Origin: Polaribacter sp. Z022
Lineage (GTDB): Bacteria > Bacteroidota > Bacteroidia > Flavobacteriales > Flavobacteriaceae
Assembly: GCF_023555495.1 (NCBI RefSeq)
Contig: NZ_JALCZO010000001.1
Coordinates: forward strand, 682,001-746,000
DNA: 64,000 nucleotides
Reading direction: 5' to 3'
Each line of letters starts with the position of its first letter. Position 1 is the first letter of the stretch. The notes beneath the pieces are model-generated. The model did no database searches. It was not told where the DNA came from and worked only from the letters and a program-made list of their open reading frames with translations. Shown here one piece after another: positions 34,001 to 46,883 of this stretch. The position numbers and the translations under genes were made by a program.

Positions 34001-34226
34001 CTTAATACCTGCTTTAAAAGGAAATTATATTTTAAATATGGTAAGTGTTTTTGCTTTTGGATCTATTATTATGACCTCTTTTGGAGTAAATTATTATTTA
34101 TCAGGATTGCATAGTTATGCAGCAGGAGACCCAGTTCCAATTCCAACATTTATTTATGTTTTAACGGCTATTGTAATTATTATTTCTGTTATTGCTTATT
34201 ATAGAAATAAGAGATTTAAAAAATAA
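31095..34226 (+). CDS. ccsBA: Fused cytochrome c biogenesis protein CcsBA (ResB-ResC, system II)
   Basis: Inner-membrane haem exporter and ligase of system II, attaching haem to CxxCH proteins in the periplasm. The 1043-residue product fuses a ResB-like half (starting STLAVLLLLVFGFSMAIATF, several helices and a large periplasmic region) to a CcsA half with many helices. The WWD haem-binding segment WGRYWAWDPKETW is near residue 940, flanked by conserved His (HVATIVSSYAPL, SGLHSYAAGDP). A second signal-like segment near residue 475 marks the join. The place directly after nrfHA suggests a role in loading the nine haems of that complex. It may be one of more than one haem ligase in the genome. 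Confidence 0.94.
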   Translation: MKRIIKIFSSSTLAVLLLLVFGFSMAIATFIENDFGTATAWKVIYDAWWFEMVMLGLGLSFIFNTFKYNLWTFKKWAILLFHISFIIILIGASITRYSSYGGIMRIREGASSNVIISSNKYLHIHLSDGEKTKSISKQISFSPISDNYFSIEEEFNNIPVKVSYNNFIADAVPEIVEDDKNGKAIIQMVVSAGSGRETVFLEKGEVEAIGAHQHKVGFEAEEEGIINITEKDGVFKILSPRNLSSFVMATEKAGTILKDSLHDFQLRTLYRDGDASFVPLSYHPKGKIDLVSGAEKVKDNDELKDDALVVDVSINGEVKESTILYRDGFIPTEHKLDFNAIKVSISYGSKAIQTPFSIHLDDFQLERYPGSTSPSAYASEVQVIDNGERFLHRIFMNNVLDYKGYRFFQASYDTDELGTVLAVNHDALGTNVTYLGYLLMIIGMFFTLFGKASRFTLINKKLKKLKEKTTMLVLLLLMISGTAFSQKKNPDINIQTIKQQTVDVQHSELFGRLMVQDLDGRIKPLNTLASEFLRKLTGKPYFKYVKDGESARLDANQTFLAMQSAANVWQYIPLIKIDKKKGGELFSELKISENNMISFIDLLDEKGDYRLGKVVESANKKKPAERSELDKEVLKVDERFNILFNVFSGNYLKIFPNSNDENNKWHSHSHHFEDFPKDDGDFAKTIIPIYFKDVNEKKWVAASEKLEYIKKFQDVLGKEIIPNRQRIEAELWYNQLNLNFWLFQVFFVLGLILLILSLIKIFTKTKLTEFVWNSIIILTLISFLFFTGNIILRWYVSQHAPWSNGYEMLVFVAWVLLLCGLLTFRKSDFSLPLSTLFSGALLFVSYLDWLSPEITNLMPVLKSFWLKVHVATIVSSYAPLALSAILGFMALLLMIFKTKNTKKVIDIRIKELTYINEISMTIGLFVLTIGTFLGGVWANESWGRYWAWDPKETWALISIIVYTIVLHLRLIPALKGNYILNMVSVFAFGSIIMTSFGVNYYLSGLHSYAAGDPVPIPTFIYVLTAIVIIISVIAYYRNKRFKK

Positions 34227-34242
34227 AGAGCACTTGTTTTTA

Positions 34243-34281
34243 TAGTTTTTTACGAATTCTAAACATTTAGTTACGAATTCT
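34243..34281. repeat. Paired ACGAATTCT motif with 21-bp spacing, upstream of the A2M operon
   Basis: TTACGAATTCTA occurs at 34250-34261 and again at 34270-34281, in direct orientation 20-21 bp apart. The 21-bp block TAGTTTTTTACG-AATTCTAAA at 34243-34263 recurs identically at 60719-60739, again with a related second copy 21 bp on. It may be an operator or a dispersed repeat. Confidence 0.5.
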
Positions 34282-34312
34282 ATATTGATTAATTTAATGG
34301 TAATTAAATCGT

Positions 34313-34320
34313 TAAATTTG
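34313..34320 (+). promoter_or_regulatory. -7 element TAAATTTG upstream of the A2M operon
   Basis: TAAATTTG matches TAnnTTTG; the nearest TTG upstream is 25 bp away (34285), longer than ideal. A transcript starting about 6 bp later would exclude the GTG at 34325 and supports the ATG at 34346. Confidence 0.4.
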
Positions 34321-34345
34321 AGTTGTGAACTTAAATAGCGCAACT

Positions 34346-37300
34346 ATGAAAACAAAATACCTTTTTTCTGCTCTTGTAATTTTTTTATTAATTTCTTCTT
34401 GTAAAAAAGAGGTTGTTAAAACAGACAATATATACAAGTTTAAAGAATATGTAAGTTATACAAGTTCTGGTATTGTATCAATCCAAGAAAAAATAAGAAT
34501 AAATCTTGCAAAAGAAGTTAAAGGTTGGGAAGCTAATCAAGAAATTTCTGCGGATATTTTATCAATAAAACCATTTGTAAACGGAAAGATAAAAACAGTA
34601 AATAAACATGCATTTATGTTTATTCCTGATGAAGATTTAGATTCGGATACAGAATATACAGTTTCAATAAAACTGAATGAAATTTATAAAGAAATTCCCG
34701 AAAATTTTAAAAATTATACTTTTCAATTTAAAACAATAACACCAAATTTTAGGATTCAAACAGCATCTTTACAATCGTATTCTAAAGAATTTCAATATTT
34801 AGAAGGTGTTGTAAAATCTGCAGATGTAATTTCTTTAGAAAACGCTAAAAAACTTATAGAAGCTAATCAAAAAGGAGTTAAAAAAAATATTGTTTGGAAC
34901 GAATCCTATGATAAAGGAAAAGTTTTTGAATTTAAAATTGATAGTATTCAACGTTTTATAGAAGATACAAAACTTAAAGTTTCTTGGTATGGAAAAGCTA
35001 TAAAAGCTGAAGCTAAAGGTGAAAATGAAATTATAATTCCAGGTAAAAATAATTTTAAGGTTGTTAGTTTAGAAGTAAAAAACACAAATGAACAATACAT
35101 TTCAATCAACTTTTCAGATGCGCTTAAAAAACAACAAAATTTTGATGGGTTGGTTGCCATTCAAAATGTAAAAAAACCAAGATTTATTGTAAATGGAAAT
35201 GAATTAAAGGTTTTTTCAGAAAACAAATTTCAGGGTAATATTTTAGTTTCTGTTTTTCAAGGAATTAAAAACTCAGATGATTTTAAATTGAAAACATCAT
35301 TTAAAGAAACTGTAACTTTTGAACAGAAAAAACCACAAATTAGAGCAATTAGTAGCGGAACTATTTTGCCAAACTCTAAAGATTTAAAATTCAATTTTGA
35401 AGCAATAAATGTTAAAGAAGTAGATGTTAGAATTATAAAAATTTATGAAGATAATGTGCTGCAATTTCTTCAAGAAAATAACATTAACAGTAATAATAGT
35501 TATGCTATTAAAAGGGTTGGACGTAGAGTTGCTAAAGAAACCATTACACTTATTAAAAATACAGAAAACAATACTCAAAAGTGGAAAGCATATAGTATTG
35601 ATATTTCTAAAATGGTAGCAACAGAACCTGGAGCAATTTATAGAGTTGAGTTAAGTTTTAATAAAAAACAGACTTTATATAATTGTTCACAAGGAAATTT
35701 TGCATCTAAAAACACAGACAATTTAGAAGATTACCAAAGTTTTAATGAAGTTGAAGACGAAGATACAAGAGAAGAAATGTATTGGGATAATAAATTATAT
35801 AGTTATAAAAATTATAGATATAATTGGCGCGAAAGAGAAAACCCTTGTCATGATGCTTATTATTATGAAAACAGAATGGTTGCTCAAAATTTATTGGCAT
35901 CTAACCTTGGTGTAATTGCAAAAAAAGGGAATAATAATGAGTATTTCTTTGCTGTAACTAACATTATAAATACCAATGTAGAAGTAGGTGCAAGTATAAA
36001 ACTATTTAATTTTCAGCAAAACGAAATTGCTTCTGGTGTTACAAATTCAGAAGGAATTGTTACTATTAATTCAGCTAAAGAAGCTGCATTTGCAATTATT
36101 TCTAAAGGAAAGAATGCTGCTTATATTAAATTGTTTGATGGTAATTCTTTGTCATTAAGTAAGTTTGATGTTTCTGGGAGCAAAACTCAAAAAGGTTTAA
36201 AAGGATATATTTATGGAGAACGTGGTGTTTGGAGACCTGGAGATGAAATGTATTTAACTTTTTTGTTGAATGATGCAGATAATAAATTGCCAAAAAATCA
36301 TCCAATAAAATTGGAAGTTACAGATCCAAGTGGAAAATTGGTGTATAAAAAAGTAACATCAGAAAATCTTAACAACTTCTACAAGTTTACCGTTAAAACT
36401 ACAACCGAATTTAAAACAGGAAACTATTCTGCTAAAATTTCTGTTGGTGGAGCAAAGTTTTATAAAAATTTAAAAGTTGAAACAGTAAAACCTAATCGTT
36501 TAAAAATTAAGGTAGATTTTAATGATAAAATTCTTACAAGTAAAAAACCTATTAATGGAGTTTTAGATGTAAAATGGTTGCATGGTACACCTGCAAAGAA
36601 TTTAAAAGCAGAAATAAAAGCTAAAGTTTCAGTCACTAATTACGGGTTTAAAAATTACAAGAATTATATTTTTTCAGATCTATCAAGAAAATTTTCTTCA
36701 GAAGAAATAAACATTTTTGAAGGTAAATTAGATAAAAATGGAATGGCAAAAATCAATAGTAAATTAACTATTGGTAAAAATGCCCCAGGTATGTTAAATG
36801 TTCAGTTTTTGGTAAGAGCATTTGAAAACGGAGGAGATTTTTCAATAGATGCTTTTTCAAAAAAATACGCACCTTTTAATTCTTTTGTAGGTTTAAAATC
36901 GCCAAAAGGAAATAGATATGGATCTTTTTTTACAGATGAAAATCAAACATTTTCTGTTGTTTCTGTTGATGAAAATGGAAATCCTAAATCTAATAGAGAA
37001 TTAGAAGTTGAAGTATATCAAATTCAATGGCGTTGGTGGTGGAGTTCCTCATCAGATAATTTATCTAGGTATACTTCTAGTAGTTACCATAACAAATATA
37101 AAACCATAAAAGTTAATACAAATTCTAAAGGAAAAGGGAGTTTTAAATTAAATATTCCAGAGAATGATAGAGGTCGTTTTTTAATTAGAGTATTAGATAA
37201 AAAAAGTGGTCATGCAACTGGAAGAACAGCTTATTTTTATAAAAATTGGTGGCAAAATGCTACTTCTGGAGACAAAGATGCTGCAAAAATGTTGGTTTTT

Positions 37301-39889
37301 TCTGCAGATAAAGAAAAGTACAATGTTGGTGAAACTGCAAAAATAACTTTTCCTTCAGGAAGTAAAGGAAGAGCTTTAATTAGTATAGAAAACGGAACAA
37401 AAGTTTTAGAAACAAAATGGGTAAAAACTAAGAAAGGAACAACCTCTTTAGAAATACCAATAACAAAAAACATGACACCAAATGTTTTTGTAAATATTTC
37501 TTTGTTACAGCCTCATCAAGTTTCAGAAAACGATTTACCAATTCGTTTATTTGGTGTAATTCCTATTTTGATTGAAGATAAAAACACCAAGTTAGAGCCT
37601 CAAATATCTATGTTAGATGAGTTGCAACCCGAAAAAGAATTTACGGTAAAGGTTACAGAAAAAAACAAAAAATCTATGACCTATACTTTGGCTGTTGTAG
37701 AAGAAGGTTTGTTAGATTTAACACGCTTTAAAACGCCAAATGCATATTCAGAATTTTACAAAAGAGAAGCTTTAGGTGTAAAAACTTGGGATATTTTTGA
37801 TGATATAATTGGTGCTTATTCTGGTAGTGTAGATCAAGTTTTTGCAATTGGAGGAGATGGTACTTTATCAAAAGGAAAAAATAGAAAAGCAAATAGATTT
37901 AAGCCAGTTGTAAAATATTTAGGTCCATTTTATTTAGAAAAAGGGAAAACAAATTCGCATAAAATAACGCTGCCTAATTATATTGGTTCTGTTAGAACAA
38001 TGGTAATTGCTGGCGATGTTACTAAAGAAGCTTTTGGTAATGCAGAAAAAGCAGTTCCAGTTAAAAAACCATTGATGGTTTTGGCTACTTTACCAAGAAA
38101 ATTATCGCCTAAAGAAAAAGTTACGTTGCCAATTTCTGTTTTTGCAATGGATAGAAAAGTGAAAGATGTAAAAATTCAGGTTAAAACTTCAAATGGAATT
38201 ACTGTTATCGGTAATAAAATTCAAAACATCAATTTTACAAAGCCAGATGAAAAAATGGTGTATTTTAAATTGGATGTTTTAAAAGCAAATGGTATTAATA
38301 CTGTAGAGGTTATTGCTACAGGAAATGGAGAAAAATCTACTTATAAAGTAGAATTAGATGTTGTAAATCCAAACCCAATTACATCAAAAATAATAGATAA
38401 AAATATAGAAGGAAAACAAACACAAACTATTGCTTTAAACACGTTTGGTATAGCAGGTTCTAATTCTGCAATTTTAGAATTATCTACAATTCCGCAGATA
38501 AATTTTTCTGGTAGATTAGAGTACTTAATACAATATCCTCATGGTTGTGTAGAGCAAACTACATCTAGTGTTTTTCCTCAGTTGTTTTTAAATGATTTGT
38601 TTGATTTAACATCAGATAAGAAGCAAAAAATTCAGAATAATATAGAAAAAGGAATTGCACGTTTAGGAAATTTTCAGAAAGCAAATGGAGGTTTAAGTTA
38701 TTGGATGGGAGAAGGAGTAATTAGTGATTGGGGAACAAGTTATGCAGGTCATTTTTTATTAGAAGCAGAGAAAAAAGGATTTGTTTTACCTCTAACTTTT
38801 AAAAGTAATTTTATTAGATATCAAAAACAAGCTGCAAGAAATTGGAGGCCAAATTATAGCTCTAATTATTCTAGAGATTTATCTCAAGCATACAGATTGT
38901 ACACCTTAGCTTTAGCTGGAAGTGCAGATTTATCTGCAATGAATAGATTACGTGAGTTTAAACAAATATCTAATGAAGCAAAATGGCGTTTGGCTGCAGC
39001 TTATGCTTTAGTTGGTCAAAAAGAAGCTGCAGAAGAAATTATACAAAATGCAACTTTAACTTTTTCAGGTTATAATTATTACAATTATGGTTCTGTTGCT
39101 AGAAATAGAGCAATGGCTTTAGAAACAATGTTATTAACTAATAATATTAAAGCAAAAACTATGGCTAAAAAAATTGCTAAAGATTTATCTAGTGATAATT
39201 GGATGAGCACACAATCTACAGCCTTTAGTTTATTGTCTATTGGTAAAATGGTACTTAAAAACGGAGGAAAAGCTATTAATGTAAGTTATACAAATAATAG
39301 TAAAACAGAGAACTTAAAAACTACAAGTTCTATGATTCAAAGAAATTTAAAAATTAAGAAAGGCAAAAATGTCATTAAAATTAATAATAATGAAAGCAAT
39401 ATTGTTTTTGCAAGAATTATAAATTCTGGAAAATTACCATTAGGAGATGAAATTTCTGAAAGTAGAGGTTTAAGTGTTTCTCTGCAATACAGAGATTTAA
39501 AAGGAAAAATAATTGATGTAAATAATTTAAAACAAGGACAAGATTTTGTAGCTAAAATTACGGTTAGTAATCCTAAAAATGAAACTGTAAAAGACATTGC
39601 ATTAACGCAGATTTTCCCTTCTGGATGGGAAATTGTAAATACTCGTTTTACAGATTTTGGGTCAACTACAAAAAGTGAAGCACGTTATACAGATATTAGA
39701 GACGATCGTGTAAATTTTTATTTTGATTTAAATGAAGGAAGAAAAAAAGCAGAAACAAAAACATTTACAGTTTTGTTAAATGCTGCTTATTTAGGAAACT
39801 ATTATTTACCAGGAGTTCAGGTTGAAGCAATGTATGATAACGATTATTTGGTAAGAACAAAAGGACTTTGGATTAAAGTTGTGAAGTAA
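34346..39889 (+). CDS. Alpha-2-macroglobulin family lipoprotein with thioester motif
   Basis: Giant periplasmic or surface protease trap of 1847 residues. I start it at the ATG at 34346 because this gives a clean lipoprotein signal (LFSALVIFLLISSCKKE, Cys near 20); a GTG 21 bp upstream would spoil it. The body is a series of beta-sandwich MG domains (KGYIYGERGVWRPGDEMYL marks MG3/4-like sequence). A bait-region-like stretch and an A2M core follow (PNYIGSVRTMVIAGD). The intact thioester GCVEQ, Cys1401, heads the alpha-helical TED domain. In E. coli the similar protein YfhM is coupled to PBP1C; here PBP1C lies three genes downstream. It traps attacking proteases by covalent capture, by family. 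Probable first gene of a four-gene operon. Confidence 0.93.
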   Translation: MKTKYLFSALVIFLLISSCKKEVVKTDNIYKFKEYVSYTSSGIVSIQEKIRINLAKEVKGWEANQEISADILSIKPFVNGKIKTVNKHAFMFIPDEDLDSDTEYTVSIKLNEIYKEIPENFKNYTFQFKTITPNFRIQTASLQSYSKEFQYLEGVVKSADVISLENAKKLIEANQKGVKKNIVWNESYDKGKVFEFKIDSIQRFIEDTKLKVSWYGKAIKAEAKGENEIIIPGKNNFKVVSLEVKNTNEQYISINFSDALKKQQNFDGLVAIQNVKKPRFIVNGNELKVFSENKFQGNILVSVFQGIKNSDDFKLKTSFKETVTFEQKKPQIRAISSGTILPNSKDLKFNFEAINVKEVDVRIIKIYEDNVLQFLQENNINSNNSYAIKRVGRRVAKETITLIKNTENNTQKWKAYSIDISKMVATEPGAIYRVELSFNKKQTLYNCSQGNFASKNTDNLEDYQSFNEVEDEDTREEMYWDNKLYSYKNYRYNWRERENPCHDAYYYENRMVAQNLLASNLGVIAKKGNNNEYFFAVTNIINTNVEVGASIKLFNFQQNEIASGVTNSEGIVTINSAKEAAFAIISKGKNAAYIKLFDGNSLSLSKFDVSGSKTQKGLKGYIYGERGVWRPGDEMYLTFLLNDADNKLPKNHPIKLEVTDPSGKLVYKKVTSENLNNFYKFTVKTTTEFKTGNYSAKISVGGAKFYKNLKVETVKPNRLKIKVDFNDKILTSKKPINGVLDVKWLHGTPAKNLKAEIKAKVSVTNYGFKNYKNYIFSDLSRKFSSEEINIFEGKLDKNGMAKINSKLTIGKNAPGMLNVQFLVRAFENGGDFSIDAFSKKYAPFNSFVGLKSPKGNRYGSFFTDENQTFSVVSVDENGNPKSNRELEVEVYQIQWRWWWSSSSDNLSRYTSSSYHNKYKTIKVNTNSKGKGSFKLNIPENDRGRFLIRVLDKKSGHATGRTAYFYKNWWQNATSGDKDAAKMLVFSADKEKYNVGETAKITFPSGSKGRALISIENGTKVLETKWVKTKKGTTSLEIPITKNMTPNVFVNISLLQPHQVSENDLPIRLFGVIPILIEDKNTKLEPQISMLDELQPEKEFTVKVTEKNKKSMTYTLAVVEEGLLDLTRFKTPNAYSEFYKREALGVKTWDIFDDIIGAYSGSVDQVFAIGGDGTLSKGKNRKANRFKPVVKYLGPFYLEKGKTNSHKITLPNYIGSVRTMVIAGDVTKEAFGNAEKAVPVKKPLMVLATLPRKLSPKEKVTLPISVFAMDRKVKDVKIQVKTSNGITVIGNKIQNINFTKPDEKMVYFKLDVLKANGINTVEVIATGNGEKSTYKVELDVVNPNPITSKIIDKNIEGKQTQTIALNTFGIAGSNSAILELSTIPQINFSGRLEYLIQYPHGCVEQTTSSVFPQLFLNDLFDLTSDKKQKIQNNIEKGIARLGNFQKANGGLSYWMGEGVISDWGTSYAGHFLLEAEKKGFVLPLTFKSNFIRYQKQAARNWRPNYSSNYSRDLSQAYRLYTLALAGSADLSAMNRLREFKQISNEAKWRLAAAYALVGQKEAAEEIIQNATLTFSGYNYYNYGSVARNRAMALETMLLTNNIKAKTMAKKIAKDLSSDNWMSTQSTAFSLLSIGKMVLKNGGKAINVSYTNNSKTENLKTTSSMIQRNLKIKKGKNVIKINNNESNIVFARIINSGKLPLGDEISESRGLSVSLQYRDLKGKIIDVNNLKQGQDFVAKITVSNPKNETVKDIALTQIFPSGWEIVNTRFTDFGSTTKSEARYTDIRDDRVNFYFDLNEGRKKAETKTFTVLLNAAYLGNYYLPGVQVEAMYDNDYLVRTKGLWIKVVK

Positions 39890-39906
39890 TATTATTTTCA
39901 AAAATT

Positions 39907-40440
39907 ATGAATAGCTACAAGAATCTGATATTTTACTTTGTAATGATAGGTTTTTTTATTTTGTTAAAGTTTGGTTACACACTTACAGAAACAAATCACT
40001 TAACTTTTTTATTAAGTCCTACAAGCAAGTTAGTTGAGTTTGTAACAGGTTTTCAATCAATTTATGCAGATAGCAAAGGTTATTATTTTCAAGAATTGAA
40101 TATTGTAATTGATAAATCTTGTGCTGGTTTTAATTTTTGGATTTTGAGTTTTTTAATGTTAACCTTTTTATCATTAAAGTATTTTGAAAAGATTAATGAT
40201 AAAGTTATCGCAATCATTATTTCGTTTTTTGGCGCTTATTTATTTACAGTATTAATCAATAGTTTTAGAATTAATGTTGTTGTGATTTTTCAAAATAAAA
40301 TTGAACTATTAACTAATTTAAGAAAAGGAATCATTCACGAAAGTATTGGTATAACAATCAATTTAACTTTTCTTGTTCTGATTTATTTAATAACAGAAAA
40401 AATTCTAAATTTTAAAAAAAGAAATGGGAAACTTACTTAA
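39907..40440 (+). CDS. xrtK: Exosortase K (XrtK)
   Basis: Small integral membrane transpeptidase-like protease (177 residues, about five or six helices) that cleaves a C-terminal sorting signal. The exosortase triad can be placed: Cys72 in DKSCAGFNFW, Arg121 in NSFRIN, and His144 in HESIGI. It is much shorter than XrtA and matches the Bacteroidota type K, which is known to pair with one dedicated MSEP-CTERM protein. That partner is the next gene and overlaps it by 17 bp, so translation is coupled. It starts 17 bp after the A2M stop. Confidence 0.9.
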   Translation: MNSYKNLIFYFVMIGFFILLKFGYTLTETNHLTFLLSPTSKLVEFVTGFQSIYADSKGYYFQELNIVIDKSCAGFNFWILSFLMLTFLSLKYFEKINDKVIAIIISFFGAYLFTVLINSFRINVVVIFQNKIELLTNLRKGIIHESIGITINLTFLVLIYLITEKILNFKKRNGKLT

Positions 40441-43243
40441 TCCGAAATGGATTTTTTTATTCAATTCATTACCAACAGCAATATTATTTTTCATTTATTA
40501 TGGAGAGTTTCAAGTAATTAAAACGCTGTTAAATGACGAAAGTATTAGCCTATGGAAATCTTTTGGTTTGGCTTTAGTTATACTTGCAATTTTAAATCTT
40601 GGATATGGAGTATTTTTAACAATTAAAAGAAAAAAAGTTTCAATCCTTTATGGTGTTTTGGCTCTTGTGTGTTATGTCTCATTTATATATTTATATGGCT
40701 ACTATTCATATGAAATCATTCCTTTTTCTATCCCACAATGGATGATTCCTCAGCGAATTGAATTATATGTTGGTACTTTTTTAATGCCAACACTGGCATT
40801 TTCGATGTTTGTTTTAGTTGCACATTTTACACCAGAAACGAAAAAACATAAAGCTTGGGTAAGTTTTTTAATTTCAATAGCAATACCAATTATTTGGTTT
40901 TTGTTTTCTCAAGTAATTTTTCCTTTATGGAAACCAATAGAAAGTAATTTTAACATTCACGTATTATTAATTTTTATAATTATTGGTACGCTAGTTTTTC
41001 TTTTCTTTTTAGTTCGTACTATTTTAATACTTGCAACCAAGAAAGCTATGATATGGAAAAAACATGAATTATTATGGAAAATACCAATAACCATATTATT
41101 TCCTATAGTAGGACTATTAGTTAACAATGGATATCTTTTTAATGATTTTGTAGTTAATGATTCTGGTATTTTTGGAAACTTTAATAGCTATTGGTTTTAC
41201 ATTTTTGCAACTTTAAGTGGGGTGTTATTATGTTTACCAAACCTTGATAAGAAACAGTATCGTCTTCTTTTATTTATAGGTAGAAGTATTACATTTACTT
41301 ATACTTTTTATTTTTTCATTGTTTTTCTTCCTTTTTTACCTTTATCTATTATTGCCATTGTAGCTATAGGAATTGGGTTTTTAATGTTAACTCCATTGCT
41401 TTTGTTTGTAGTACATATAAATGAGATTACAAAAGATTTCAATTTTTTAAAATCAAATTTTTCGAAAAAAAGGATTTGGACTATATCAATAATAAGTTTT
41501 TGTGTAATTCCAGTTCTTATAACCCTAAATTATTTGAACGATAGAAATACATTAAATGAATCTCTAGAATATCTCTATAGCCCAGATTATTCTAAAAATT
41601 ATGAGATAGATAAACGTTCACTAAAAAAGACGCTTGATGTCGTTATTGGGCATAAGGATAGTAGAGGTTTTTTTTCTAGCAAACAAAAACCTTATTTATC
41701 ATCATATTTTAATTGGTTAGTTTTAGATAACCTAACATTATCTAATTCTAAAATTGATAATATAGAAGATGTTTTTTTTGGGTTAAAGCCAAAGGATAGA
41801 TCAACATTTATAAATAATCAAAATAAGAATGTAGAAATTACCAAAATTGATACAAAAAGTACATACAATGAATCTGAAAAAACGTGGAAAAGTTGGGTTG
41901 AATTAGAAATTACAAATCAGAATGAAAATGATAGATTTTCTGAATACGCTACAACTATAGAGATACCAGAAGGATGTTGGATTAGTGATTATTATTTATA
42001 TGTAGGAGGTAAAAAAGAAATGGGAATTTTAGCAGAAAAGAGAACTGCTAAGTGGGTGTTTTCAAATATTAGAAATGAGAATAGAGATCCAGGTATTTTA
42101 TATTATCTAACAGGAAATAAAGTTGCATTTAGAGTTTTTCCTTTTGCGAAAAATGAAGTTAGAAAAACAGGAATTGAATTAATTCATAAAGAACCTTTTC
42201 AGTTTAAAATAGATAAAGAAACAGTAATACTTGGTGATTTTAAAAAGAATGAAGAGAAAGTATATGAGAATAAAAATATAATATATATATCAGCAGAAGG
42301 TAAACAGAAGCTAAAAAAGGTTAATAGAAAACCTTATTTTCATTTTATTCTAGATGCAACTAATAAAGATTCTTTAGCTACTTATAAAAATCGATTAGAA
42401 TCATTAGTGAAGAACAATAAAAACTTATCAGAAAATGCTAAAATAAGTTTTGTTAATAGCTATGTAAATACAACTCCTCTTATTAACGGTTTTCAATTAA
42501 ATTTGAAGAAAATTAAATTTGAAGGAGGTTTTTATCTTGATAGAGCTATAAAATCGATACTATTTAATTCGTATAAATCTCAAACAAATTATTACCCTGT
42601 AATTGTTGTAATTACAGATTCTATAAAGGAAGCGATAATTAATAAAGATTTTTTAGATTGGAAATTTACTTTTCCAGAAAGTGATTTGTTTTATAATCTG
42701 AATAAGAAAGGTATTTTAGAATCACATTCTTTAATATTGAATCCTTCAAAACCCGTAAATGCCAGTGCTAATTTGTCTTTTGATAAAACCGTTTTAGAAT
42801 ATAAATTAGAAGATAATTCTGTAAAATACCTTTCAGATAATAACAAACCAACCATCATTTTAAAAACGGATGTATTTAAAATTGAAAATAAAGAGATAAA
42901 CAAAAAAAGTTGGAATTCTGGTTTGCTTATGCAAGCAAAATGGAGGTCACAAATATTGCATCCAGAGAACTCAGATACAGAGTGGTTAGATTTAGTGAGA
43001 AATAGTTTTACATCTCATATTATGATGCCAGTTACATCTTTTTTAGTTGTAGAAAATGAAGCTCAAAAAGCAATATTGAAAAGAAAGCAGCAACAAGTTT
43101 TGTCAAGTAATCAATTATTAGATCTTGGCGAAGAAGCAGAAAGTATGAGTGAACCAGGTTTTGTTGTAATGTTATTTTTACTAGGTTTTATATTTTGGTT
43201 TAGAAGTAAAAGAAATGGAATTAAGCAATGTTTAAAAAAATAA
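40424..43243 (+). CDS. MSEP-CTERM sorting domain protein with VIT and VWA-like region
   Basis: Probable dedicated substrate of exosortase K, 939 residues. Residues 1 to about 375 form a bundle of roughly ten transmembrane helices. A VIT-like domain follows (about 485-600: EYATTIEIPEG, VGGKKEMGILAEK, NRDPGILYYLTGNKVAFRVF). Next is a VWA-like alpha/beta region (about 625-800: PYFHFILDATNKDS in place of a canonical MIDAS DxSxS). The C-terminus is the sorting signal: MSEP at 908-911, a hydrophobic helix (VVMLFLLGFIFWF) and a basic tail RSKRNG. The tail coding region overlaps the PBP1C start by 16 bp. VIT plus VWA is the core layout of inter-alpha-trypsin inhibitor heavy chains. Function in bacteria is unknown. 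Confidence 0.88.
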   Translation: MGNLLNPKWIFLFNSLPTAILFFIYYGEFQVIKTLLNDESISLWKSFGLALVILAILNLGYGVFLTIKRKKVSILYGVLALVCYVSFIYLYGYYSYEIIPFSIPQWMIPQRIELYVGTFLMPTLAFSMFVLVAHFTPETKKHKAWVSFLISIAIPIIWFLFSQVIFPLWKPIESNFNIHVLLIFIIIGTLVFLFFLVRTILILATKKAMIWKKHELLWKIPITILFPIVGLLVNNGYLFNDFVVNDSGIFGNFNSYWFYIFATLSGVLLCLPNLDKKQYRLLLFIGRSITFTYTFYFFIVFLPFLPLSIIAIVAIGIGFLMLTPLLLFVVHINEITKDFNFLKSNFSKKRIWTISIISFCVIPVLITLNYLNDRNTLNESLEYLYSPDYSKNYEIDKRSLKKTLDVVIGHKDSRGFFSSKQKPYLSSYFNWLVLDNLTLSNSKIDNIEDVFFGLKPKDRSTFINNQNKNVEITKIDTKSTYNESEKTWKSWVELEITNQNENDRFSEYATTIEIPEGCWISDYYLYVGGKKEMGILAEKRTAKWVFSNIRNENRDPGILYYLTGNKVAFRVFPFAKNEVRKTGIELIHKEPFQFKIDKETVILGDFKKNEEKVYENKNIIYISAEGKQKLKKVNRKPYFHFILDATNKDSLATYKNRLESLVKNNKNLSENAKISFVNSYVNTTPLINGFQLNLKKIKFEGGFYLDRAIKSILFNSYKSQTNYYPVIVVITDSIKEAIINKDFLDWKFTFPESDLFYNLNKKGILESHSLILNPSKPVNASANLSFDKTVLEYKLEDNSVKYLSDNNKPTIILKTDVFKIENKEINKKSWNSGLLMQAKWRSQILHPENSDTEWLDLVRNSFTSHIMMPVTSFLVVENEAQKAILKRKQQQVLSSNQLLDLGEEAESMSEPGFVVMLFLLGFIFWFRSKRNGIKQCLKK

Positions 43244-45582
43244 AAAACTACATAAAACGTCATAAAAAGAAAACAATATTACTTGTTGTTTTGCTGATTT
43301 TTTATGCTTTTTGTTTGCCAAAAAAGTTATTTACAAAGCCAACGTCAACAGTAATTACAAGTAATAATGATGAGTTATTAGGTGCTTTAATTGCTAATGA
43401 TGGTCAATGGCGTTTTCCTTATAATGATGCTGTTCCTAATAAATTTAAAAATTGTTTAATTCAGTTTGAAGATGAGTATTTTTATAAACATCCAGGATTT
43501 AACCCTATTTCAATTTTGAAAGCTTTAAAACAGAATTTACAAGAAGGAAGCGTAAAAAGAGGAGGTAGTACAATTACACAACAAGTTATTAGATTATCTA
43601 GAAACGATAAACCAAGAACGTATTTTGAAAAATTTAAAGAACTCATTTTAGCAACACGTTTAGAACTTAGAACTTCTAAAGAAAAAATTTTAACGTACTG
43701 GAGTTCTAATGCCCCTTTTGGCGGAAATGTAGTAGGTTTAGATGCAGCTTCTTGGAGATATTTTAACAGAAAATCTTCAGATTTATCTTGGGCAGAATCT
43801 GCAACTTTAGCAGTTTTGCCAAACGCACCAAACTTAATTTATCCAGGAAAAAATCAACATAAATTATTAGCAAAAAGAAATAGATTACTAAAAAAGTTAT
43901 TATTAAAAAATGTAATTGATTCTTTAACTTTTGAATTATCAATTTTAGAAGAATTACCACAAAAACCTTATGCGCTTCCACAAATTACACCGCATTTATT
44001 ACAAAGAATTAATAAAGAAAAAAAGGGTGAAGTTGTAAAAACTACTATTGATAAACAATTACAAAATCAAACAAACACAATTGTTAAAAATCATTACAAT
44101 CTATTAAGTAAAAACGGAATTCATAATATTTCTGTTTTGGTTTTAGATGTAAAAACAAGACGAGTTTTAAGCTATATTGGTAATTCTCCAACTTCTAAAA
44201 AACATCAAAAAGATGTAGATGTAATAGACAAACCAAGAAGTACAGGTAGTATTTTAAAACCATTTTTATATGCTGCTATGTTAGATTCTGGAGATTTATT
44301 ACCAAATACCATAGTTGCAGATGTACCAACAAATTTTGGTAGTTATAAACCCGAAAATTTCGACAAAAAATATGCAGGAGCAATTTCTGCAAAATTAGCA
44401 TTGTCTAAATCTTTAAATGTACCAACAGCTAGAATGTTGCAAAGTTTTGGATTGGATAAATTTCATAATTATTTACAAAAATTAAAACTCAGAGGTTTAA
44501 AAAATAATCCAGATTATTATGGTTTAACCTTAGCTTTAGGAGGAGCAGAAAGTAACTTGTGGGATTTATGTAAAAGTTATGCATCCTTAGCATCAACAGT
44601 AAATCATTTTTCAGAAAACTCTAGTAGATATTTTAAAAATGAATTTACAGAACCAACTTTTTATGCTGATAAAGAGGTTGATTTTGGAGAAAAAACCTCA
44701 GAAAAAATTGTTTTAGATGCTGCATCAATTTATTTGACTTTAGAAAGTTTAAAAGAAGTAAATAGACCAAATGTAAATCAGAACTGGGAGTATTTCGATT
44801 CATCTAAACAAATAGCGTGGAAAACAGGAACTAGCTTTGGTTTTAGAGATGCTTGGGCAATTGGTGCTACAAAAGATTATGTTGTTGGTGTTTGGTGTGG
44901 AAATGCAGATGGAGAAGGAAGACCTGGTTTAGTTGGTGTACAAGCTGCAGCTCCTATTTTATTTGATGTTTTTGATAAATTACCAAATTCTGAATGGTTT
45001 GAAAAACCTTTTGATGAAATGACAGAAATAGAAATCTGTAGAAAAAGTGGTTATAGAGCAACTGATATATGTGAAAACAAAAATGTTGAGTTTATACAAA
45101 ATGCTGGGTTAAAAACGGCTCCTTGCCCTTATCATATTTTAGTAAATATAGATTCCTCAGAAAATTATCAAGTAAACACATCTTGTGAAAAATTAGAAAA
45201 TATTAAGCAAAAATCTTGGTTTGTTTTACCACCTTTAATGGAATATTATTTTAAGAAAAAAAATCCGTTTTATAAGTCGTTACCTAAGTATAGAGTTGAT
45301 TGTTTGGGTGACTCTAAAAACGCAATGAAATTTATTTATCCAACAGAAAACAGTACTATTTTTCTTCCTAAAGATTTTAAAGGTAAAAAAAACGAAGTTG
45401 TTTTTAGAGTAGCACATTCTAATTCAGAAGCTACATTGTTTTGGTATGTAGATAATATTTATTGTGGTACAACAAAAAGAACGCACGATTTTTCTATGAA
45501 TTTAGAAATTGGAACTTATAATGTTTCTGTAACTGATAACTTTGGTGGCGTAATTGCACAAAAAATATCGGTAACAGAGTAG
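43228..45582 (+). CDS. pbpC: Penicillin-binding protein 1C
   Basis: Bifunctional class A-type murein synthase, 784 residues, with one N-terminal membrane helix (ILLVVLLIFYAFCLP). The GT51 glycosyltransferase shows FEDEYFYKHPG and GGSTITQQVIRL. The transpeptidase shows SxxK as SILK (Ser341, Lys344), SLN in SKSLNVPTARM, and KTG in WKTGTSFGFRDAW. A BiPBP-type C-terminal beta domain follows. Such PBP1C proteins typically team with alpha-2-macroglobulin for repair at breached envelope sites; that is inference from E. coli yfhM-pbpC. It overlaps the end of the MSEP gene and ends the operon. Confidence 0.95.
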   Translation: MFKKIKNYIKRHKKKTILLVVLLIFYAFCLPKKLFTKPTSTVITSNNDELLGALIANDGQWRFPYNDAVPNKFKNCLIQFEDEYFYKHPGFNPISILKALKQNLQEGSVKRGGSTITQQVIRLSRNDKPRTYFEKFKELILATRLELRTSKEKILTYWSSNAPFGGNVVGLDAASWRYFNRKSSDLSWAESATLAVLPNAPNLIYPGKNQHKLLAKRNRLLKKLLLKNVIDSLTFELSILEELPQKPYALPQITPHLLQRINKEKKGEVVKTTIDKQLQNQTNTIVKNHYNLLSKNGIHNISVLVLDVKTRRVLSYIGNSPTSKKHQKDVDVIDKPRSTGSILKPFLYAAMLDSGDLLPNTIVADVPTNFGSYKPENFDKKYAGAISAKLALSKSLNVPTARMLQSFGLDKFHNYLQKLKLRGLKNNPDYYGLTLALGGAESNLWDLCKSYASLASTVNHFSENSSRYFKNEFTEPTFYADKEVDFGEKTSEKIVLDAASIYLTLESLKEVNRPNVNQNWEYFDSSKQIAWKTGTSFGFRDAWAIGATKDYVVGVWCGNADGEGRPGLVGVQAAAPILFDVFDKLPNSEWFEKPFDEMTEIEICRKSGYRATDICENKNVEFIQNAGLKTAPCPYHILVNIDSSENYQVNTSCEKLENIKQKSWFVLPPLMEYYFKKKNPFYKSLPKYRVDCLGDSKNAMKFIYPTENSTIFLPKDFKGKKNEVVFRVAHSNSEATLFWYVDNIYCGTTKRTHDFSMNLEIGTYNVSVTDNFGGVIAQKISVTE

Positions 45583-45666
45583 TTAATTAAAGGGTTGTTT
45601 AGGTTTATTCGTCGAAAGTAATGTATGAATTATCGAAAAAGGATTCATAGAAATAAAGTTTACGAT

Positions 45667-45674
45667 TACCTTTG
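45667..45674 (+). promoter_or_regulatory. -7 element TACCTTTG ahead of a 49-codon gene
   Basis: TACCTTTG fits TAnnTTTG and lies 26 bp before the ATG at 45701. No clear -33 TTG. Confidence 0.35.
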
Positions 45675-45700
45675 GTAGACAAACTGAAACTTTTGTCATC

Positions 45701-45850
45701 ATGTTTTTACAAATCTTACCACCAGATAATATAGCAACAGAGCACTCTAATTATGATAACCAATTGTTATTAGTAGTATTAGGTTTAGCCTTTTCAGTTT
45801 TTGTTATTATAAGATTGGCAAAATTGTTAAGTAAATTAAAAATAAACTAA
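45701..45850 (+). CDS. Small single-helix membrane protein (49 residues), hypothetical
   Basis: The only likely gene in the stretch 45583-46037. The ATG frame gives 49 residues: an acidic, polar N-terminus (MFLQILPPDNIATEHSNYD), one transmembrane helix (LLLVVLGLAFSVFVIIRL) and a basic tail ending KLLSKLKIN. The helix with positive residues on one side is what a real small membrane protein looks like rather than chance AT-rich sequence. Resembles accessory subunits or small regulators only in shape; I recognise no family. The rest of the stretch, 45851-46037, is AT-rich with nothing else visible. Confidence 0.5.
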   Translation: MFLQILPPDNIATEHSNYDNQLLLVVLGLAFSVFVIIRLAKLLSKLKIN

Positions 45851-46037
45851 CTTTTTATTTATTTAAATGTTTTGTTTATAAAGGTTTTAAATAGACAACC
45901 TTTAGATTTTTTTAACAAAAAATTATATATTTTTCTACATCTTTGTTTCCTTGTACTTTTTTAAAAGTATTATAAGTATTTTGATTCTTAATTAGTTATT
46001 TTTATAGATAATTTTTTTTGATTTTAATTTATATAGA

Positions 46038-46883
46038 ATGAAGATATATCCTATTGAAACTGGTAATTTTAAACTAGATGGAGGGGCAATGTTTGGTGTT
46101 GTTCCTAAAACTATTTGGCAAAAAACAAATCCTGCAGATAATAACAATCTAATAGATATGAGTATGAGAAGTATACTTATAGAAGATGGGGATCGTTTAA
46201 TTTTAGTAGATACTGGTTTAGGAGCAAAACAATCCAATAAATTTTATAGTTATTATTATCTTTTTGGCGATTTTTCTTTAGATACTTCTTTAGCCAAACA
46301 TGGTTTTCATAGAGATGATATTACAGATGTTTTTTTAACACATTTACACTTTGATCATTGTGGAGGTGCTATAGAATGGAATTCTGATAGAACTTTCTTA
46401 CAACCTGCATTTAAAAATGCAAAATTTTGGTCTAATGATAAACATTGGCAATGGGCAACAGAACCAAATGCAAGAGAAAAAGCTTCGTTTTTAAAAGAAA
46501 ATATCAATCCAATTAAAGAAAGTGGTCAATTAAATTTTATACACAGTAATTATAAAGACCAAATAGGTTTTGATGTTTTATTTATGGATGGACATACAGA
46601 AAAACAAATGTTACCCATGATAAAATATCAAGGAAAAACAATAGTTTTTATGGCAGACTTACTTCCAACTGTTGGTCATATACCTTTACCATATGTTATG
46701 GGTTATGATACAAGACCATTGTTAACAATAAAAGAAAAAGCAGCATTTTTAAATCAGGCTGCAGATAAAGAATTTTACCTTTTTTTAGAACACGATTCTT
46801 ACAATGAACTTTGTACAGTTAAACATACAGAAAAAGGAGTTAGACTTAAAAGTACACACAAATTTATAGATATATTTAATTAA
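46038..46883 (+). CDS. MBL-fold metallo-hydrolase
   Basis: Metallo-beta-lactamase-fold hydrolase of 281 residues without a signal peptide, so cytosolic. The zinc motif HxHxDH is LTHLHFDHCGG near residue 106. Later ligands are His in LFMDGHTEKQ, Asp in VFMADLLPTVGH, and His in FLEHDSYN. Overall similarity is to the lactonase-like group that includes AHL lactonases, but the physiological ester or lactone is unknown. It precedes the S8 peptidase gene by 14 bp in the same direction. No terminator is visible between them. Confidence 0.88.
   Translation: MKIYPIETGNFKLDGGAMFGVVPKTIWQKTNPADNNNLIDMSMRSILIEDGDRLILVDTGLGAKQSNKFYSYYYLFGDFSLDTSLAKHGFHRDDITDVFLTHLHFDHCGGAIEWNSDRTFLQPAFKNAKFWSNDKHWQWATEPNAREKASFLKENINPIKESGQLNFIHSNYKDQIGFDVLFMDGHTEKQMLPMIKYQGKTIVFMADLLPTVGHIPLPYVMGYDTRPLLTIKEKAAFLNQAADKEFYLFLEHDSYNELCTVKHTEKGVRLKSTHKFIDIFN

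Follow-up and report, generated by a model that had tools for sequence, protein, structure and literature searches.

Background

Genes for a bacterial alpha-2-macroglobulin (A2M) and for the murein synthase PBP1C are known to be paired, and a joint function in defence and repair has been proposed, as two papers report (PMC3328433, PMC4498604). A second known pair consists of an exosortase and its substrate, namely exosortase K (XrtK, TIGR04287) and the MSEP-CTERM protein (TIGR04286; MSEP for short). Here we investigate a stretch of 64,000 nucleotides from Polaribacter sp. Z022 (contig NZ_JALCZO010000001.1, positions 682,001 to 746,000), hereafter the window, in which the second pair lies between the two genes of the first. 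This arrangement is very probably the result of a private insertion of the XrtK-MSEP cassette between A2M and PBP1C, which are conserved neighbours, in one lineage.

The locus resembles yfhM-pbpC, the pairing of an ECAM with PBP1c, in having a thioester A2M lipoprotein with PBP1C downstream, and differs from it in the approximately 3.3 kb of unrelated cassette that parts the two genes. It resembles the XrtK/MSEP-CTERM system in that both proteins score far above the family cut-offs and their genes are adjacent with a 17-bp overlap, yet nowhere else in our survey is that pair found between A2M and PBP1C. Two further systems are relevant. In XrtX/PID-CTERM (NF046081/NF046080), the PID tag is carried by six relatives of the MSEP family in place of the MSEP tag that is present on the window protein. 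The XrtN/VIT-domain system (TIGR04476/TIGR04477) likewise pairs an exosortase of its own with a neighbouring polytopic VIT protein that is tagged at the C-terminus, but it has another enzyme family, a VPEP tag, and a gene order of substrate then enzyme. Another exosortase, XrtF, matters for surface colonisation in Flavobacterium johnsoniae, according to PMC10936215. The terms 'MSEP-CTERM', 'exosortase K' and 'PID-CTERM' were not found in the literature searched, which was made up of openly licensed papers.

The four genes of the locus

The features of the locus, in window coordinates, are as follows.

34346..39889, + strand: A2M, thioester-type bacterial alpha-2-macroglobulin lipoprotein, 1847 amino acids (aa) from the ATG, within open reading frame (ORF) 34325-39889 (Pfam domains, PDB matches)
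38546..38557, + strand: CVEQ thioester codons in A2M (position computed from residue 1401)
39890..39906, + strand: 17-bp gap between A2M and XrtK, upstream junction of the inserted cassette (ORF positions and comparison with relatives)
39907..40440, + strand: XrtK, exosortase K (NCBIfam TIGR04287; C72, R121 and H144 invariant)
40424..43243, + strand: MSEP-CTERM protein, putative XrtK substrate (NCBIfam TIGR04286 and structure model)
40445..41578, + strand: N-terminal bundle of the MSEP protein, about 11 predicted membrane helices, residues 8-385 (structure model)
41903..42166, + strand: VIT-like domain of the MSEP protein, residues 494-581 (Pfam VIT just below cut-off; model)
42317..42796, + strand: VWA-like domain of the MSEP protein, about residues 632-791, with degenerate metal site (model, alignment)
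43145..43156, + strand: codons of the MSEP tag, residues 908-911 (alignment A2, in which M, E and P are invariant in 56 rows)
43160..43237, + strand: predicted C-terminal membrane helix after the MSEP tag, residues 913-938 (structure model)
43228..43243, + strand: 16-bp overlap of MSEP and PBP1C, downstream junction, where the relatives' PBP1C homology starts and the window has ATG (comparison with relatives)
43228..45582, + strand: PBP1C, bifunctional murein synthase with intact motifs (NCBIfam, Pfam, motif check)

By their ORF positions the four genes share one strand (+) in the order A2M-XrtK-MSEP-PBP1C, with a gap of 17 bp and then overlaps of 17 and 16 bp. Co-transcription is plausible, because terminator-like sites are absent from 34200-46050, where 3.2 would be expected from shuffled sequence. 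The promoter scans add little: sigma-70-like sites numbered 58 against 69 in shuffles, which is uninformative, and a single fixed-spacing Bacteroidota-type promoter consensus had no match in the region.

The A2M has over-cut-off Pfam matches to the bait region, bMG3, MG2, bMG5, bMG6, A2M, TED and bMG10 domains; in the NCBIfam scan it matched no family. The motif check found the thioester GCVEQ intact, with its cysteine at residue 1401 numbered from the ATG, and a lipobox-like LISSC. In the PDB it matches 4u48, a solved bacterial A2M, and the entries for YfhM, with E values down to 2.5e-76. With its CxEQ motif, lipobox and bMG domains, it has the features of the thioester-type bacterial A2M (ECAM). 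PBP1C scores 675 bits to TIGR02073 (cut-off 494), has the Pfam glycosyltransferase and transpeptidase domains, and retains GGSTITQQ and KTGT. A second, longer A2M is present in the same genome, in a 2133-aa frame (G000:C32:128722-131040).

XrtK scores 150.5 bits (cut-off 55) and the MSEP protein 936 bits (cut-off 150) to their NCBIfam families. Cys72, Arg121 and His144 are present in all 78 distinct aligned XrtK sequences, the window's included; these conserved Cys, Arg and His residues we take to be catalytic. A search of PDB with XrtK gave chance matches only.

A preliminary description of this DNA had listed the four genes in this order, with the 17-bp gap, the two overlaps and an intact GCVEQ thioester, all of which agree with the ORF positions and the motif check. 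It had also treated A2M with PBP1C as a known pair, as the literature cited above confirms, and XrtK with MSEP-CTERM as enzyme and substrate, which is upheld by the NCBIfam names and by the match of tag to enzyme described below.

A probable insertion between conserved neighbours

How common is each module in the genus? XrtK is over cut-off in one of 146 genus genomes sampled, and MSEP in one of 166, in both cases the window's own; two further genomes of the 146 hold only fragments of XrtK, at 20-21 bits and with stops. More widely, and counting the window's genome each time, MSEP is over cut-off in 5/392 genomes of the phylum and 10/397 of the family.

PBP1C is over cut-off in 40 of 58 genus genomes, and a shorter A2M, in frames of 1,834-1,918 aa, was found in exactly those 40, even when the two are not adjacent. 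This pairing is based on the 40 weaker of the over-cut-off bMG10 matches (53-71 bits, in those frames); the 43 stronger matches, which belong to the longer A2M and include two fragments, were left out, as were three under the cut-off. On one strand, the A2M and PBP1C matches are separated by less than 0.8 kb in 22 of these genomes and by less than 19 kb in 35, the window included. In the remaining five they are 97 and 130 kb apart (two genomes), on opposite strands (one) or on different contigs (two). All but one of the 40 genomes (39/40) are without MSEP.

The surroundings of A2M and PBP1C were examined in 20 genus regions, one of which (L075) stops short of its A2M. In nine close relatives, with PBP1C identities of 76-83%, the interval between the two genes is 1 to 1,336 bp, and XrtK and MSEP are absent. 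In the closest relative read (L063) the interval is occupied by an IS110 transposase, and more distant members of the genus have longer runs of genes there. Across L062, L063, L068, L070, L076, L077 and L079 the interval gathers GTCATTGCGAGGAACGAAGCAATC-like repeats, the IS110 transposase and longer gene insertions, with a DEAD-box helicase among the genes inserted in L068.

Identity to the L063 proteins is 84.6% for the window A2M and 83.2% for the window PBP1C; for the window MSEP, identity to the other MSEP proteins seen does not exceed 61-62%. An MSEP tree of 88 rows makes the window sequence the partner of one from a Saprospiraceae metagenome (support 96), in a group with Brumimicrobium and Dokdonia (support 99). 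Horizontal gain of XrtK-MSEP is the simplest reading and most likely the correct one, the lineage of the window being the presumed recipient.

The junctions can be placed closely. At the 3' junction, ACTACATAAAACGTCAT at the start of PBP1C is common to the window, L063, L076 and L077; just before it the mechanically called PBP1C start is TTG in the three relatives and ATG in the window. The MSEP stop codon falls within the first PBP1C codons of the window, and homology to the relatives picks up again within about 20 bp of the window PBP1C start. Both junctions are at gene boundaries and leave all reading frames intact. Of 77 distinct other loci in which XrtK was called, 44 have an XrtK-MSEP overlap of exactly 17 bp. 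This overlap is a feature of the cassette itself; for that reason the 16-bp overlap of MSEP with PBP1C most plausibly arose through the insertion.

Tidy junctions of this kind would also be accounted for by an ancestral four-gene operon, later lost in all other genus members (165 genomes). We consider this exceedingly unlikely: MSEP is in one genus genome of 166, the four-gene order is absent from 87 other loci described below, and the window MSEP is closest to sequences of other families. That the order occurs in one genome only is also what an assembly chimera would produce, but the locus is inside an 875-kb contig and its junctions are at gene boundaries with frames intact, so that the probability of a chimera is next to negligible.

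The intact frames, the undecayed cassette and the PBP1C ATG at the junction are in keeping with another possibility, that a chance insertion was later kept since the A2M-PBP1C promoter usefully drives the cassette. Such regulatory co-option is compatible with insertion as described here, but a recent neutral insertion would give the same picture, and we regard co-option as rather unlikely.

Several observations weigh against a private insertion by transfer. The MSEP tree was a quick one. The GC content at third codon positions (GC3) is 16.6 for MSEP and 18.5 for XrtK, against a mean of 14.3 (standard deviation 2.7) over 42 window ORFs; foreign base composition was accordingly rejected as proof of transfer, GC3 being unremarkable. 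No direct repeat of at least 14 nt brackets both cassette ends, and no mobile gene is found at the cassette. In the survey of other MSEP loci, one flank is shorter than 1 kb in 12 of 87, and the scan that supplied most of them kept the best 80 of 120 relatives. Finally, PBP1C is present in all 13 other MSEP genomes searched, as a loose functional relation between the modules would have it.

A 16-nt inverted match (94%) does bracket the cassette, at 39884-39899 and 43269-43284. It was considered as a trace of insertion and is taken as chance, its right arm being ordinary PBP1C sequence shared with L063.

Is the four-gene linkage conserved?

The preliminary description had proposed that the four genes form one envelope machine, in which a protease trap, a processed VIT-VWA protein and a murein synthase cooperate, with the operon as the mark of their joint action. 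If so, the linkage should recur. Loci with an MSEP match above 200 bits numbered 93, of which 4 came from the phylum search, 9 from the family search and 80 from a collection scan. The scan was queried with an alignment of five MSEP proteins, the best 80 of its 120 relatives being used; queried with the window MSEP protein alone, it found no relative. Removal of L133, whose MSEP is cut at 631 aa, and of five duplicates left 87 distinct other loci. Their flanks extend at least 1 kb on both sides in 75 and at least 3 kb in 66, and none goes beyond about 10 kb.

It had been stated beforehand that the linkage would be accidental if most XrtK/MSEP loci lacked A2M and PBP1C. Neither gene was found within 7 kb at any of the 87 other loci (phmmer, E up to 1e-5). 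The nearest A2M to any of them is partial and oppositely oriented, at a distance of 9.0 kb in L093; the nearest PBP matches are weak, at 63-74 bits and 7.4-8.8 kb (L101, L127, L131). Recurrent A2M-XrtK-MSEP-PBP1C linkage in independent lineages was thus not observed.

The two modules do occur in the same genomes. Besides PBP1C, 12 of the 13 other MSEP genomes also have an A2M, in a frame of 1,854-1,905 aa. MSEP and PBP1C are on different contigs in nine of the 13, and at least 0.5 Mb apart in the remaining four (G284, G688, G852, G165). Among Flavobacteriaceae, PBP1C is found in 10 of 10 other MSEP-bearing genomes examined, against a base rate of 110/199 genomes of the family; the chance of this is 0.55 to the tenth power, or 0.003 (0.009 when counted by eight genera), a figure that ignores kinship and genome size. 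This unlinked co-occurrence gives weak support to a loose relation between the modules.

A single machine could draw on that excess of PBP1C, on the tight spacing in the window and on the lack of a terminator-like site. It has to contend with modules that are separated in 13 of 13 other MSEP genomes, and with the 39 of 40 genus genomes that manage A2M and PBP1C without MSEP. We reject a joint machine, which is very unlikely, because neither A2M nor PBP1C lies within 7 kb at the 87 other loci and MSEP is present in one of 166 genus genomes.

Other genes recur around MSEP. A winged-helix gene and a protein of about 200 aa without a Pfam family lie nearby, nearly always upstream, in 20 of the 87 loci (e.g. 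L034, L055, L100); the regulator is of the HTH_34 type, as scanned in L034. CreD-like genes (12 loci), DUF1361 (13), DUF4153 (11), DUF2809 (7) and DUF218 (6) are also found, each family name coming from the scan of one member. The CreD/DUF/HTH_34 neighbourhood is like an envelope-stress setting, and the setting of XrtK-MSEP is likely to be the cell envelope. An aconitase gene is just upstream of ten Hymenobacter-type MSEP loci (L035, L136, L145, L148, L149, L150, L153, L157, L158, L160), and next to the XrtN/VIT loci L037-L039 is an ORF that resembles aconitase on visual inspection.

The tag follows the enzyme

In 78 of the 88 MSEP rows, the window included, the locus has XrtK and the protein has an M-x-E-P tag. 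The XrtK of L149, missed by the ORF caller and recovered by tblastn, is counted here as present. Three rows (L082, L112, L117) have the tag at a contig end that leaves no room for XrtK, one (L122) has XrtK and a protein cut before the tag, and six have neither. These six (L035, L152, L153, L154, L157, L160) fall into a single supported clade, which consists of Hymenobacter and a genome of the same class.

At the C-termini of the six, PID-CTERM (NF046080) is over its 26-bit cut-off in three and reaches 21-25 bits in the others; in a whole-genome PID-CTERM search, five of the six proteins with a swapped tag are over cut-off. By TIGR04178 each of the six genomes has one exosortase, and XrtX is found in all six at 242-257 bits (cut-off 170). 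The M-x-E-P form is kept in three Hymenobacter genomes with both enzymes (G912, G913, G915), as well as in G914, G916, G917 and G918, where the one exosortase found sits at the XrtK position. PID-CTERM is over cut-off in 9/9 genomes with XrtX, in 0/4 with XrtK alone and in none of 14 control genomes. The association of tag and enzyme has a small Fisher value, which counts kin and not independent trials. The tag follows the enzyme, as a single evolutionary event.

In the window's genome, XrtK and XrtF are the only exosortases found, the latter at locus L170 (G000:C32:286501-288900), and no XrtX was found. Two short ORFs there have PID-CTERM ends over cut-off (G000:C44:149574, G000:C32:337246); therefore the PID tag is not tied to XrtX alone.

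Fold of the MSEP protein

An AlphaFold model of the MSEP protein was made from alignment A2, which holds 56 of the 82 available MSEP rows and none of the six PID rows. Its mean predicted local distance difference test score (pLDDT) is 85.3 and its predicted TM-score (pTM) 0.81. In the model, residues 8-385 form about 11 helices; a beta-rich region comes next, and another helix lies C-terminal to the MSEP tag.

Animal inter-alpha-inhibitor heavy chains are VIT-VWA proteins of which the cut C-terminus is ester-linked to polysaccharide. A likeness of the MSEP protein to these chains had been suggested from its sequence, and the predicted model is in agreement: the best Foldseek match is inter-alpha-inhibitor heavy chain 1 (ITIH1, 6fpy), with an E of 8e-9 over about 600 columns, a root mean square deviation (rmsd) of 16 and a TM-score of 0.18-0.24. 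VIA-align 2 places a VWA domain at about residues 632-791 (best Z 9.7 over 138 residues, rmsd 3.6, many VWA domains tied) and matches ITIH1 to residues 466-882 (Z 9.6 over 327 residues, rmsd 9.2). TM-scores against ITIH1 are 0.16-0.29, so the domains agree better than their arrangement. Pfam VIT reaches 25.3 bits, just below its cut-off of 26.5. Against PDB sequences the MSEP profile gave weak matches only, the best being ITIH4 at the VIT region (E 0.44). Taken as a prediction, the model supports VIT followed by VWA, as in ITIH1.

The MSEP protein differs from ITIH1 in its predicted membrane embedding, its exosortase tag and its degenerate VWA metal site. Such a site usually has the motif DxSxS, T, D. 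D644 is conserved in 55 of 56 rows, S/T646 in 54 and D732 as D in 42. The residue at the second Ser position is variable, and in place of the Thr all 56 rows carry F, Y or L. Judged by these residues, the MSEP protein lacks the intact metal site of the heavy chains. The XrtN target family matches the MSEP profile at residues 248-580 (probability 98.6) and, by this comparison, is distantly related to it in the last of the membrane helices and in the VIT domain.

Conclusions

The explanation we prefer is that an older module, A2M-PBP1C, and a younger one, XrtK-MSEP, both known and independent, were joined in one transcriptional neighbourhood. The cassette would have landed between A2M and PBP1C with harm to neither gene, and the tight spacing would be a by-product of the landing place. 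XrtK-MSEP would be self-contained, working without A2M or PBP1C. The MSEP protein may be held in the inner membrane by its approximately 11 helices with the VIT-VWA ectodomain facing the periplasm, and XrtK, through Cys, Arg and His, would cut at the MSEP tag on the outer face of that membrane. The enzyme would then probably hand the new C-terminus to an envelope acceptor, while the N-terminal helices keep the protein anchored. Gene content, distribution, junctions, predicted fold and the correspondence of tag and enzyme come from the present analysis; the membrane side, the cleavage, the transfer and the acceptor are proposed from known exosortase behaviour.

Could the membrane-embedded VIT-VWA protein be a recurrent payload, its C-terminus joined to an envelope acceptor by whichever exosortase the lineage has? 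We hold this tentatively, as somewhat less than an even chance, and just as tentatively the pairs it would comprise, which are XrtK with MSEP here, XrtX with PID in the Hymenobacter clade and XrtN with VPEP in other Flavobacteriaceae. If true, it would be a bacterial parallel to the inter-alpha-inhibitor heavy chains, and in the Hymenobacter tag swap nature would have run a re-targeting experiment.

The comparison removes an accidental guilt-by-association, and indicates that tight, overlapping operons can be private insertions. XrtK-MSEP is a module of one enzyme and one substrate for which a good fold model is available, and exosortase specificity in Bacteroidota can readily be tested by comparison with the six relatives that lack XrtK and have exchanged the tag. 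The lasting interest of the locus is in these retagged relatives and in the VIT-VWA likeness.

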